Assembly: GCA_002843035.1 (NCBI GenBank) | Contig: PHEV01000006.1 | Coordinates: 1-64,000, forward strand | DNA length: 64,000 nucleotides | Direction of reading: 5' to 3' | DNA from: Actinobacteria bacterium HGW-Actinobacteria-5 | Lineage (GTDB): Bacteria; Actinomycetota; Actinomycetes; Propionibacteriales; Propionibacteriaceae | Shown here: piece by piece, positions 26,647 to 50,449 of the stretch | Position numbering within the stretch: position 1 is the first letter of the stretch | Layout: each line of letters begins with the position of its first letter | Position numbers and translations under genes: made by a program | The notes under the pieces: generated by a model | Told to the model about the DNA's origin: nothing | The model's database searches: none | The model's input: only the letters and a program-made list of their open reading frames with translations

Positions 26647-28131
26647 GTGACCAACAACGAGCAACCCGATCAGCCCTCCGACCAGACCGGGCAACCGGCA
26701 CCAGGGGGTTCCTACACCAGCGGGCCGGCAGCCACCGGCCAGCCGCAGCCCTACCCAGGCGCTCAGGCTCCCTACCCCGGCCAGCCCGGGGCTACGCCCG
26801 GACAGCAGCAGCCCTACCCGGGACAACAGCCCTACCCCGGACAACAGCCCTACCCCGGCGCTCAGGCTCCCTACCCCGGCCAGCCCGCGGCCGCACCCGG
26901 ACAGCAGCAGCCCTACCCGGGACAGCAGCCCTACCCGGGACAGCAGCCCTACCCCGGACAACAGGCGTACCCCGGACAACAGCAGCCGGGCCAGCAGCAG
27001 TACCCGGGCCGGCCACAGTACGCCGCACAGCCGGGCACCCCGCCCTACGGCCAGGGCCAGCCTGGCCAGCCTGGCCAGCCCTATGGCTACCCCGGCCAGC
27101 CGCCCTACCAGAGCCCGCCGCCACGGCCGGCGAAGAGCAGGGTGCCGCTGTTCATCGGGCTCGGCGCCGGCGTGGTGGTACTCGTCCTGATCGCGGTCTA
27201 CGCCCTCACCCGCGGCACAGTCAGCGGCACCGTCCCCACCGTCGCACCGACCATCGGGACGAACACGAGCGCCGGCGGCCCGCCGCAGTCCGCCGACGCG
27301 GCCGCAGCCGTGCAGGGCTACCTGAACGCCATCGCGACCGGCGACTCCGCGACGGCCCTCGCCTACGCGGCCACGCCCCCGGACGACGCCGCGCTGCTCA
27401 CCGACGAGATGCTCGCCGCCTCGAACGCGACCGCGCCGATCAGCGGAATCGTGGTCACTCCCGGCAGCGGCACCGACCACCAGGACGTGCAGGCGGACTA
27501 CGCGATCGGTGACACCCCGGCGAGCGCGACCTTCGGGGTCAGCAACGTCGGTGGCACCTGGCTGCTCGACGACGTGGCCTTCGCCCTGCCGCTCGACCTC
27601 TCTGCGGCGGAGGATCTCGAACTGTCGCTCAACGGCGTGCCCCTGCCGTCCACCTCGCCGGTCGTGTTCCCCGGCAAGTACACGGTGAAGACGGCCAGCG
27701 GCTGGTACAAGCTCTCCGGCGGCACCGTCACGGTGGACGGCAACACCGCCTCCACCGGCACGTCCGCGGTGGACCTGAAGCTGAGCAGCTCCGGGGTGTC
27801 CGCGATCCGCAAGGCGGCCCAGGCCAAGCTGACCGCCTGCCTGAAGAAGAAGTCGCTGACCCCCTCCGGCTGCGGCTTCGGAGTCTTCCTCCCCGGCAAC
27901 AACAAGGTGCGGACCTCGTCGATCCGGTGGCAGGTGGTCAGCGGCAGCAGCGCGATGAAGACCCTCAAGCCGAGCCTGTTCGGTGCGGGCACCGCCACAG
28001 CCAAGGTGTCGGTGAAGACCCGCAACGACTGCTACTCCACCAACGGCCTGCGCTGGCGCGGGTTCTCGAGCATCCACTCGGTGTACGCCACGCTCGACGG
28101 CGGCAAGGTGCAGGTCACTTTCGGCGCGTGA
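26647..28131 (+). CDS. Membrane-anchored hypothetical protein with PYPGQQ-rich N-terminal low-complexity region
   Basis: GTG start MTNNEQPDQPSDQ; (PYPGQQ)n, one TM segment (VPLFIGLGAGVVVLVLIAVYAL), extracytoplasmic C-terminus. Confidence 0.75.
   Translation: MTNNEQPDQPSDQTGQPAPGGSYTSGPAATGQPQPYPGAQAPYPGQPGATPGQQQPYPGQQPYPGQQPYPGAQAPYPGQPAAAPGQQQPYPGQQPYPGQQPYPGQQAYPGQQQPGQQQYPGRPQYAAQPGTPPYGQGQPGQPGQPYGYPGQPPYQSPPPRPAKSRVPLFIGLGAGVVVLVLIAVYALTRGTVSGTVPTVAPTIGTNTSAGGPPQSADAAAAVQGYLNAIATGDSATALAYAATPPDDAALLTDEMLAASNATAPISGIVVTPGSGTDHQDVQADYAIGDTPASATFGVSNVGGTWLLDDVAFALPLDLSAAEDLELSLNGVPLPSTSPVVFPGKYTVKTASGWYKLSGGTVTVDGNTASTGTSAVDLKLSSSGVSAIRKAAQAKLTACLKKKSLTPSGCGFGVFLPGNNKVRTSSIRWQVVSGSSAMKTLKPSLFGAGTATAKVSVKTRNDCYSTNGLRWRGFSSIHSVYATLDGGKVQVTFGA
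26761..26958 (+). repeat. 99-bp in-frame higher-order tandem duplication within the PYPGQQ region
   Basis: AQAPYPGQPGATPGQQQPYPGQQPYPGQQPYPG followed by AQAPYPGQPAAAPGQQQPYPGQQPYPGQQPYPG. Confidence 0.85.
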
Positions 28132-35052: not shown

Positions 35053-35142
35053 GTCGCACCTCTCCTTCGGCGCGTCATAGCGTAGACGGGCCGGCGGGTC
35101 CGCGTTGTCCCGGCGGGTCAGAACCCACCCGCGCCGCACCAT

Positions 35143-35364
35143 GGCCGAAAAGGGGACGGCTCTCCTTCTCGTCCACGCGCGCCGAAGAGGCGGACGGCCG
35201 ATAAGGGGACGGTTCTCCTTTTCGTCCACACCGTTCATCCGCCACCCTGGAGGTGCCCTACACCCGGCCGCGCGGTGGCCGATAAAGGAACCGTCCCCTT
35301 ATCGGCCAGGACGCGCCCTCCACCGACCGCAGTGGCCGAAAAGAGAACCGTCCCCTTATCGGCC
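35143..35364. repeat. GGGGACGGTTC-core repeat, family A, locus 2, four units (35143-35174, 35196-35227, 35277-35307, 35334-35364)
   Basis: Two units in one orientation followed by two inverted units, e.g. GGCCGATAAGGGGACGGTTCTCCTTTTCGTCC and GGCCGATAAAGGAACCGTCCCCTTATCGGCC. Confidence 0.92.
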
Positions 35365-35377
35365 AGGACGAAGCCGC

Positions 35378-46803: not shown

Positions 46804-47718
46804 TCAGGCGGCGGTGCTGGTGTCGCCGAGCATGGCCTGGGTCAACTGGGCGACGATCGGGAACGAGTGCCACAACTGGTGGCCGAGGCCGTCCACGGTG
46901 ATCGTGGGACCGGGCACACCGCGTCCGGCCAGCTGGGCGTCGAGCCGCTCGTAGTCGCCCACGCGGCACAGCGAACTGCGCGAGCCGCGCGCCAGCGCGC
47001 ACCGGGCGAGCTCGACGGCGTCCAGGCCCTCGAGCAGGCCCGGGGTCGCCAGCACCTGCCCGATCGCGACCAGGTCCACCGGCGAATAGCGGACGGACGG
47101 CTCGCGGCGCTGCGACCGGCGGGCTGCCATCACCCACTCGTGGCCCTTGTTCGTGGCCAGGACGGTGGGCATCCGGCCGAGGTCGGCGATGTTGTGGGCC
47201 TGCAGCGAGGCGATGTTGCGGGTCGTGATGGCCACCGGCTCGACGAGGTTCAGGCCCTCGATCGGCCCCCACTCCCCCAGCAGCGGGAGCGCGGAGACGG
47301 CGAGCGAGCAGCCCGTCGAGTAGCCGAGCACCTGCATGTACTCGGGATTGCGGACGTCGCCGACCTCGAGCGCCTCGGCGACGTAGGCGAGGTTCAGCTC
47401 CGCCCAGGCATCGATCCTGCCGTGCAGCATCTCGGTGCGAACCGCTTTCGGAATGCTGTGCCCGAACCGGCTCATCCCCGGGATCTCTGTGACCACGACG
47501 GTCAGCGAGGTCGCGTCCGCCAGGTGTGCGCACCTGGCGATCTCCCACGGCCCGAGCGGGGTGTTGAAGCCGGGGAAGTAGACCAGCACGCCGTGGGACA
47601 CCGGTGGCGTGGCCACCAGGGCGTCCAGGGGAGTGCGTCCGGTCGGTCGCAGGGTGTGCTGGCGCACCAGCGTCTCCGGCCGGGCCTCAACGGCACGGTG
47701 GTCGACCGAGATCGTCAT
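46804..47718 (-). CDS. Alpha/beta-hydrolase-like protein
   Basis: GVLVYFPGFNTPLGPWEIAR, VLGYSTGCSLAVSALPLL (nucleophile-elbow-like), GLGHQLWHSFPIV. Confidence 0.65.
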   Translation of the reverse strand: MTISVDHRAVEARPETLVRQHTLRPTGRTPLDALVATPPVSHGVLVYFPGFNTPLGPWEIARCAHLADATSLTVVVTEIPGMSRFGHSIPKAVRTEMLHGRIDAWAELNLAYVAEALEVGDVRNPEYMQVLGYSTGCSLAVSALPLLGEWGPIEGLNLVEPVAITTRNIASLQAHNIADLGRMPTVLATNKGHEWVMAARRSQRREPSVRYSPVDLVAIGQVLATPGLLEGLDAVELARCALARGSRSSLCRVGDYERLDAQLAGRGVPGPTITVDGLGHQLWHSFPIVAQLTQAMLGDTSTAA

Positions 47719-47880
47719 CCTCGACCGCTGCACGTCTGCCACGCCTGCGATCGTACGCGAGGAGTGGGCGCGATTCGCCCGGGAGCGGCTGCGGCGACAG
47801 AATGGCCGACAGAGTGCTGCGGCGACCGATTCGCCGGGCGGGACGTCCGTCCTCACGGTCGCCGGCCTCGTGGAGGACCG

Positions 47881-48822
47881 ATGAATTCGCTCGAGGGCCT
47901 GCTGCGCAACGCGCTGCTGGCCGCCGCCCGCAGTGCCCGGCTGAAGGCCATGGCCCTGCGGCTGCCCGTGACAGCCGCCGTGGTACGCCGGTTCGTCCCC
48001 GGTGAGACGATCGCCGAGTGCCTCGCCGCGGTTCGAGCGCTGGCCGCGGACGGGCTGCACGCGAGCATCGACTTCCTCGGCGAGGACACCACCAGCCCCG
48101 CCCAGGCCGCGGTCGTCCGCGACGGCTACCTGGAGGTGCTCGCGCGCCTGGCCGCCGAGGGCCTCACCGGAACCGCGGAAGTGTCGGTCAAACTGACCGC
48201 ACTCGGGCTGGGGCTGCCGGACGGGCGTGGCCTGGCCCTGGCGCACGCGCGGGAGATCTGCGCGGCGGCATCCGCTGCCGGGACGACCGTGACCGTCGAC
48301 ATGGAGGACCACACCGCGACCGACGCCACCCTCGGCGTCCTCGCCGAACTGCGACGCGACTACCCCGACGCGGGCGGCGTCCTGCAGGCCTACCTGCACC
48401 GGACGCTGGACGACTGCACGCTGCTCGCCGGCGAGAAGTCGCGGATCCGGCTGTGCAAGGGCGCGTACGCCGAGCCGGCCGAGGTCGCCCACCAGACCCG
48501 CGAGGAAGTGTCGACCGCGTACGTGGCATGCGCCCGCGTCCTGATCGCCGGGGACGGCTATCCGATGCTGGCCACGCACGACCCGGAGATGATCGCCGCC
48601 GTCGCCGAACTGGCCGCCCAGTACGGCCGCGAGCCGGGCAGCTACGAGTACCAGATGCTGTACGGCATCCGCTCCGACGAGCAGCGCCGGCTCGCCGCGA
48701 TGGGCGAGGCCGTGCGGGTGTACGTCCCCTTCGGCACCGATTGGTGGGGCTACTTCGTCCGCCGCCTCGCCGAGCGTCCGGCGAACCTGCTGTTCTTCCT
48801 GCGCGCCCTGCTGGGTCGCTAG
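47881..48822 (+). CDS. Proline dehydrogenase
   Basis: RLCKGAYAEPAEVAHQ, LATHDPEMIAAV, EYQMLYGIRSDEQRRL, VYVPFGTDWWGYFVRRLAERPAN. Confidence 0.92.
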   Translation: MNSLEGLLRNALLAAARSARLKAMALRLPVTAAVVRRFVPGETIAECLAAVRALAADGLHASIDFLGEDTTSPAQAAVVRDGYLEVLARLAAEGLTGTAEVSVKLTALGLGLPDGRGLALAHAREICAAASAAGTTVTVDMEDHTATDATLGVLAELRRDYPDAGGVLQAYLHRTLDDCTLLAGEKSRIRLCKGAYAEPAEVAHQTREEVSTAYVACARVLIAGDGYPMLATHDPEMIAAVAELAAQYGREPGSYEYQMLYGIRSDEQRRLAAMGEAVRVYVPFGTDWWGYFVRRLAERPANLLFFLRALLGR

Positions 48823-48828
48823 CCGGGT

Positions 48829-48894
48829 GGACCGAGTTCGGAACCGTCCCCAATTCGGTCCGGACCGGGTTGGGGACGGTTCCGAACTCGGTCC
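48829..48894. repeat. GGGGACGGTTC-core repeat, family B, locus 4 (units 48829-48861 and 48862-48894, inverted and abutting)
   Basis: GGACCGAGTTCGGAACCGTCCCCAATTCGGTCC followed by GGACCGGGTTGGGGACGGTTCCGAACTCGGTCC; 6 nt after the proline dehydrogenase stop. Confidence 0.92.
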
Positions 48895-49254
48895 ACCCTC
48901 GAGCCAGCGGGCCACCGCGGCATCCGCGTCGACGAGGCCGACCACGATCCTCGGACCGTCGTGCGGACGCAGGTAGCCCTCCCGGATCCGGGCGTTCAGA
49001 TCGGCGACGATCTCGCGCACTTCCGCCTCGGTGGGGACTCCGGCCAGCGTCTCCGGCAGCCGCTCGACCTCGCGGCGCAGGGCCAGCGGGGTGGGAAGCA
49101 GCGGTTCGAGGTGCTCCCTGGCGATCTTGGCCTTCACCCACCAGTCCGGGTCGTCGTCCAGGTGCAGGGGTTTGCCCGCCCCGGGCAGGTCGTCGAACTC
49201 GCCGCGCTCGATCGCTTCCCGGACCTGCCGGTCGATCCACGACTCGTACTGCAT
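48895..49254 (-). CDS. DUF1992 (DnaJC28-like) protein; 3' end undefined because the frame runs without a stop through the repeat
   Basis: MQYESWIDRQVREAIERGEFDDLPGAGKPLHLDDDPDWWVKAKIARE; no in-frame stop before 46804. Confidence 0.75.
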
Positions 49255-49288: not shown

Positions 49289-50449
49289 TCAGCCGGCCGA
49301 CGCCGCCCGGTCGAGCCCGGCGCGCAGGTCTGCGACCAGGTCGGACGCGTCCTCGACGCCCAGGCTGAGCCGCAGCAGGCCGACGGTGATCCCCGCGGCC
49401 GCCTGCACCTCGAGCGGCATCGCCGCGTGGGTCATCGTGGCCGGGTGCGAGATGAGCGACTCGACGCCGCCGAGGCTCTCCGCCAGGCAGAAGCACTCCA
49501 GCCCGTCGACGAGCGCCCGGACCGCGGCCTCACCACCCACGTCGAAGGTGACGATCGCGCCGAAGCCGTCCATCTGGCCGGCGGCGAGCGCGTGCTGGGG
49601 ATGCGTGGACAGCCCCGGGTAGTGGACGGCCCGCACGGCAGGGTGCGCGCCGAGCAGTTCGACGATCGCGGCGGCGTTGGCCTGGGCTGCAGCCATCCGC
49701 AGGTGCAGGGTGCGCAGACCGCGCAACACGAGGTACGCGTCCAGGGCTCCGCCGGTGGCTCCCAGGGTGTTCGCCCACCACCCCAGCTGGTCGAGCACGT
49801 CCCCGGACGCGGCGACGATCGCTCCCGCCACCACGTCGCTGTGCCCGTTGAGGTACTTGGTCGCCGAGTGCACCACCACGTCGGCGCCCCACTCCAGGGG
49901 ACGTTGCACGACCGGGCTGGCGAACGTGTTGTCCGCCACCACCCGCGCGCCCGCGGCGTGGGCCGCCCGGCACAGCGCCGCGATGTCGGTGATCCGCAGC
50001 AGCGGATTCGACGGGGTCTCCAGCCAGACGAGGTCGGCTCCGGCCAGCGCGTCCGGCCAGGTGGAGGGGTCACTGAGGGCGACCAGGCGCAACTGCAGGC
50101 GTCCGGTGCGGGCCAGGGCTTCGAACAACCGCCAGGAACCGCCGTAGCAGTCCAGCGGCGCGACCAGCGTGCCGCCGGGTGGCAGCAGGGCCAGCACCGT
50201 GGTGGCGACCGCGCCCATGCCGGACGCCGTGATGACACCGCCCACCCCGCCTTCGAGCCCGGCAATCGCGTCCGCGAGTACCGACCTGGTGGGGTTGCCG
50301 GCCCGGCTGTAGTCGTAGCCGCCGGGCTCGCCGAAGCCGGGGAAGGAGTAGGTCGTCGACAGGTACACCGGGGGCACGACAGCACTGTGCGTCGGGTCGG
50401 TGTTGATCCCGGCCCGGACCGCCCGCGTCCGGGGGTGCTGGTGTGTCAC
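49289..50449 (-). CDS. metB: Cystathionine gamma-synthase-like PLP enzyme
   Basis: DYSRAGNPTRSVLADAIAGLEGG, VVADNTFASPVVQRPLEWGADVVVHSATKYLNGHSDVVAG, ESLGGVESLISHPATMTHA. Confidence 0.9.
   Translation of the reverse strand: MTHQHPRTRAVRAGINTDPTHSAVVPPVYLSTTYSFPGFGEPGGYDYSRAGNPTRSVLADAIAGLEGGVGGVITASGMGAVATTVLALLPPGGTLVAPLDCYGGSWRLFEALARTGRLQLRLVALSDPSTWPDALAGADLVWLETPSNPLLRITDIAALCRAAHAAGARVVADNTFASPVVQRPLEWGADVVVHSATKYLNGHSDVVAGAIVAASGDVLDQLGWWANTLGATGGALDAYLVLRGLRTLHLRMAAAQANAAAIVELLGAHPAVRAVHYPGLSTHPQHALAAGQMDGFGAIVTFDVGGEAAVRALVDGLECFCLAESLGGVESLISHPATMTHAAMPLEVQAAAGITVGLLRLSLGVEDASDLVADLRAGLDRAASAG

Follow-up and report, generated by a model that had tools for sequence, protein, structure and literature searches.

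A DUF1992 gene that runs past its normal end

Our analysis supports the view that a DUF1992 gene in the 64,000-nucleotide window (the whole stretch of DNA analyzed here) has lost its normal end because of a 70-nt REP pair. The conserved part of the gene, 120 codons at positions 48895 to 49254 of the minus strand, is defined by Pfam (PF09350, DJC28_CD), codon score, and homologues. Its frame opens at an ATG at 49254, 34 nt after the stop of the upstream gene for a PLP enzyme of Cys/Met metabolism (49289 to 50377, minus strand; Pfam, 5.5e-130), and reaches a stop at 46804 after 816 codons. The part that continues past the repeat to this first in-frame stop (46804 to 48826, minus strand; codon score and ORF) runs without a stop for 2,020 nt. 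These limits, and the peptide quoted through the repeat in an earlier sequence-only reading, are exact. DJC28_CD is the only Pfam match within the 816 codons (residues 6 to 71; 5.2e-21, above the curated cut-off). The first two 50-codon blocks score 0.34 and 0.23, coding-like values, and the coding signal is intact as far as the repeat; the score then falls in the repeat-bearing block, is at or below zero opposite the neighboring proline dehydrogenase gene, and becomes coding-like again from about 47718. There a separate downstream gene (46804 to 47718, minus strand; gene call, codon score 0.26 to 0.43) lies by chance in the same frame; a Pfam search gave no match for this gene, which had been read as an alpha/beta-hydrolase.

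Homologues of DUF1992 end where the repeat begins in the window gene, as the sequence-only reading had claimed. Among 30 homologous loci sharing at least 56% identity, a set in which two genomes are counted twice, 29 have their stop 3 to 11 residues beyond the last conserved Trp and the remaining one has it 34 residues beyond; the three closest (73 to 81% identity) stop after 3 to 4 residues. Homologues within the same genus match at 79, 76, and 73%. The window gene reads W-L-E and then enters the repeat, and the normal end just past the final Trp is not present. Repeat-free orthologues that also lacked a stop here would have refuted that reading, but the homologues without the repeat do stop at this point. 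The nearest named relatives carrying DUF1992 are Micropruina and Propioniciclava (three matches in the genome collection, the best in a Micropruina sp. at 65%).

The length of the continuation follows from codon usage. The proline dehydrogenase gene (Pro_dh; 47881 to 48822, plus strand; Pfam, 1.9e-34) is convergent with DUF1992, and its stop (48820 to 48822) lies 4 nt before the repeat. Its codons line up with those of the DUF1992 frame on the other strand, and that frame stays open past the repeat because an in-register antisense stop requires TTA, CTA, or TCA, codons that are rare here (24 of 18,638, or 0.13%) and absent from the proline dehydrogenase gene. A gene of 314 codons has a 0.67 chance of an in-register antisense frame free of stops, and such open frames occur in 20 of the 36 large genes of the window; among relatives, antisense openness of proline dehydrogenase is mixed. 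The openness over 816 codons is therefore real but less remarkable than had been thought, and the long continuation needs no special explanation. The idea that selection maintains a long antisense frame was dropped, because an open frame is to be expected and this stretch has non-coding codon scores.

The repeat is a RAYT-associated REP element

The repeat at 48827 to 48896 is a family-B REP pair (BIME) of '+-' type, with arms at 48827 to 48862 (plus strand) and 48861 to 48896 (minus strand); its exact ends are as yet not fixed by an empty site. It is not a chance sequence: the core GTTCGGAACCGTCCCC is present at 84 genomic sites with no more than one mismatch, against none in a reversed control. 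About 100 family-B arms with consensus GTGGACCGAGTTCGGAACCGTCCCCAACTCGGTCCG are found genome-wide at no more than one mismatch (reversed control, 0), and they occur as inverted pairs, both '+-' and '-+'. As the sequence-only reading had stated for both orientations, the pair is free of stops, the 70-nt consensus pair having none in any of the six frames. The RNA folds as a hairpin of -73.9 kcal/mol (folding z-score, -11.3). Prediction of intrinsic terminators found none at the repeat, the single reported site lying elsewhere, and a known structured RNA was rejected for want of any Rfam match in the window.

Each arm of the DUF1992 copy differs from the consensus by a single base, and '+-' pairs of exactly 70 nt occur at seven other loci (two more '+-' pairs measure 65 and 72 nt). 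These figures bear on the proposal that an assembly or base-calling error at the hairpin has concealed a different true length or a stop within the repeat. A perfect hairpin is a difficult sequencing template, and the assembly is a draft broken into 295 contigs, but arms one base from consensus and a length shared with seven other copies are poorly compatible with such an error, which we consider quite improbable. The canonical length, found again in the seven other '+-' copies, also makes a collapsed repeat or an indel unlikely here, even in a draft genome.

The genome encodes three Y1 transposases (RAYTs), on contigs C225, C256, and C268. The RAYT gene on C268 (PF01797; E = 1.4e-12) has family-B arms on both sides, and the other two are bordered by two other palindromes, so that each gene has its own family. 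The palindrome around the C225 gene matches the window's other repeat family, family A, whose arms (GGCCGAAAAGGGGACGGTTCTC) lie at 96 to 181 and 35142 to 35373. Among 30 genomes, family B is common only in this one (G000) and its nearest relative, G024. Nine of 10 comparable G000 sites also hold repeat sequence in G024, the clear exception being the site on C210.

The repeat is thus a RAYT-associated REP/BIME element of the kind linked to IS200/IS605-type Y1 transposases (Nunvar 2010, PMC2817692; Bertels and Rainey 2011, PMC3116915). Like those elements, it consists of short paired palindromes in high copy, with each family flanking its own Y1 gene and a GTRG-like head. It differs in that the outer end of most arms is GTGG, with variants, a GTRG form rather than GTAG itself, and in that the host is an actinobacterium. 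A single search of open-access papers gave none joining RAYT, REP, and Actinobacteria.

Repeat copies and the ends of genes

Family-B copies are closely associated with the ends of genes. Using our own codon-score gene finder, we counted coding frames running towards an element at 51 clusters: of 65 such frames, 54 end ahead of the element (45 of them no more than 8 nt away; median distance, 3 nt), 8 stop inside it, and 3 pass through. Two of these three are internal insertions in long genes, leaving DUF1992 as the only one in which an ending has been removed and none supplied. In-frame REP insertions were seen in a MetH-like gene (C108, L111) and a pyruvate:ferredoxin oxidoreductase-like gene (C163, L113), both named by eye; the one on C108 looks like a family-A element combined with one of family B. 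In gene pairs running in one direction, the element is closer to the 3' end in 25 of 26 cases (P = 8e-7). Convergent pairs free of repeats are separated by a median of 15.5 nt, and the genes overlap in 9 of the 32 pairs, in one of them by exactly 4 nt; gaps are so short that an element within one adjoins both stops.

Some copies also supply the stop. The consensus pair is stop-free in six frames, though certain arms carry GGT TCC followed by TGA or TAA in one of their frames, and seven unrelated genes end in -GDGS with the stop inside a REP arm. These lie on C27, C79 (MetF), C88 (SnoaL-like), C101 (PAP2), C210 (alpha-amylase family), C260 (M20-type peptidase, by eye), and C268 (cobalamin adenosyltransferase), at L265, L267, L206, L125, L096, L270, and L104. 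Most relatives of MetF end in R-x-I-P-P-H plus 0 to 4 residues, and the C79 copy reads REIPPHLDQLGDGS. The C260 tail is common to G024, with TAA there instead of TGA; other relatives end in ATSA or AGS. G024 has three -GDGS genes in all, one being this same gene. A gene on C254 (L269; element at 2761 to 2830) enters the repeat in the frame used by DUF1992 and ends four codons in, at a TAG (...DYADGGPE-stop); where the C254 arm has TAG, the DUF1992 arm has TCG.

In other bacteria, REPs have been described that lie no more than 20 bp from convergent 3' ends, that sit inside or at the end of coding regions, or whose termini provide a TAG (Di Nocera 2013, PMC3733652). Placement at convergent 3' ends, occurrence in or at the end of coding regions, and the supply of stops are shared with the elements described here. 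Here, however, the supplied stop lies inside the arm (GGT TCC TGA/TAA), giving several unrelated proteins one -GDGS tail, and DUF1992 is the one end without any stop. Stop-supplying REPs are already known (PMC3733652), and it is the stop-less outcome at DUF1992 that is unusual.

How the stop was lost

The flanks of the DUF1992 copy suggest where the native stop lay. Excision of 48827 to 48896 joins them as ...ARWLEAG-TAG, giving 121 codons, the length of the homologues. The candidate native stop is a TAG at 48819 to 48821 (minus strand), now one base out of frame; once restored, it and the stop of proline dehydrogenase would overlap by 4 nt, the shared sequence being CTAG. As 70 mod 3 is 1, a 70-nt insertion shifts the frame. 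The native TAG is probably still present, pushed out of frame rather than replaced, because removal of the 70 nt restores W-L-E-A-G-TAG. The sequence-only reading had held that the element inserted at or replaced the native stop; loss of the normal end through the repeat stands, and replacement is unnecessary.

We propose the following course of events, which we consider somewhat more probable than its competitors taken together. A family-B pair, presumably spread by the RAYT of contig 268, would have landed 4 nt beyond the stop of proline dehydrogenase. This point would also lie just inside the last DUF1992 codons, because the convergent genes were packed tightly and probably shared CTAG. Seventy bases would shift the frame by one, so that the native TAG would no longer be read; with the repeat stop-free in this frame and the proline dehydrogenase antisense open by codon bias, no stop would follow for about 700 codons. 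Several points weigh against a frame shift of this kind. A C in front of the proline dehydrogenase stop is enough to account for the restored TAG, the fit in phase had a one-in-three chance, most genes that end inside a repeat regain no stop when their flanks are joined, and G004, the sole relative with the same convergent pair, has a DUF1992 gene that ends in TGA, separated from proline dehydrogenase by a gap of about 190 nt with no overlap. This gap (L135) is filled by another inverted-repeat family, GTTTCGACAAGCTCAACC....

Alternatively, the REP pair may first have sat harmlessly after the DUF1992 stop until a small deletion removed that stop, fusing the gene to the repeat. Most copies do lie 0 to 8 nt past a stop, and joining the flanks brings back a stop in only one of the eight genes that end inside a repeat. 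Since seven of the eight regain no native stop, such stops can also be lost outright. Yet the flanks at DUF1992 rejoin to an in-frame TAG at the length of the homologues, which is unexpected after a deletion, and we regard this course as possible but doubtful here.

Fate of the mRNA and its meaning

Loss of the stop would be tolerable because DUF1992 is dispensable in this genus. A DUF1992 match was detected in 8 of 30 genomes of the genus, this one included, and was undetected in 22. In G024, the proline dehydrogenase is 89% identical and no DUF1992 gene follows it, and in G017 the order is proline dehydrogenase, REP-like arms, and the PLP-enzyme gene (identified by eye through its similarity to the one in the window), with DUF1992 gone. 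The gene is therefore dispensable in the group.

Under the frame shift favored above, the mRNA would most likely be subject to stalling at the hairpin and tmRNA rescue, or else to a long unproductive extension. The bacterial gene arfA is a non-stop gene whose mRNA is cleaved or ended in a hairpin and whose product is tagged by tmRNA. Traits like those of arfA are present at DUF1992, where a stable hairpin precedes any stop, and the genome has a tmRNA gene. By analogy with arfA, DUF1992 might now be a true non-stop gene with a product made only via tmRNA tagging, and hence at low or conditional levels, although we think this unlikely. Stalling and rescue seem the likeliest fate because a tmRNA gene is present and ribosomes are reported to stall at E. 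coli REPs lying no more than 15 nt from a stop (PMC12306157, citing its reference 17). In both cases a strong hairpin immediately adjoins the coding end. E. coli ribosomes meet the stop before the hairpin, whereas at DUF1992 the ribosome must enter it, so stalling here is proposed by analogy.

The extension could instead be functional, either as a fusion of DUF1992 to the downstream hydrolase or as a selected non-stop gene under tmRNA control as in arfA. The downstream gene shares the frame, the hairpin is very stable, and tmRNA is present. Against these stand the roughly 300 intervening codons that score as non-coding in the DUF1992 frame, the one-in-three chance of a shared frame, the expected openness of the antisense, and the frequent absence of DUF1992 in the genus, and a functional extension is very unlikely.

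In this compact genome, a mobile hairpin affects the ends of proteins in three ways. Usually it sits directly behind a stop codon and is tolerated; in some genes it takes the place of the stop and adds a common tail to unrelated enzymes; and in one case the gene is left without an end. The DUF1992 locus offers a natural test of how bacteria handle a chromosomal non-stop gene. It is also a warning, as annotation software could either list a spurious protein of 816 residues or miss the DUF1992 gene. Elsewhere in the window, at 26746 to 27044, tandem 18-nt and 99-nt direct repeats (CAGCAGCCCTACCCGGGA units) lie probably within a coding region.
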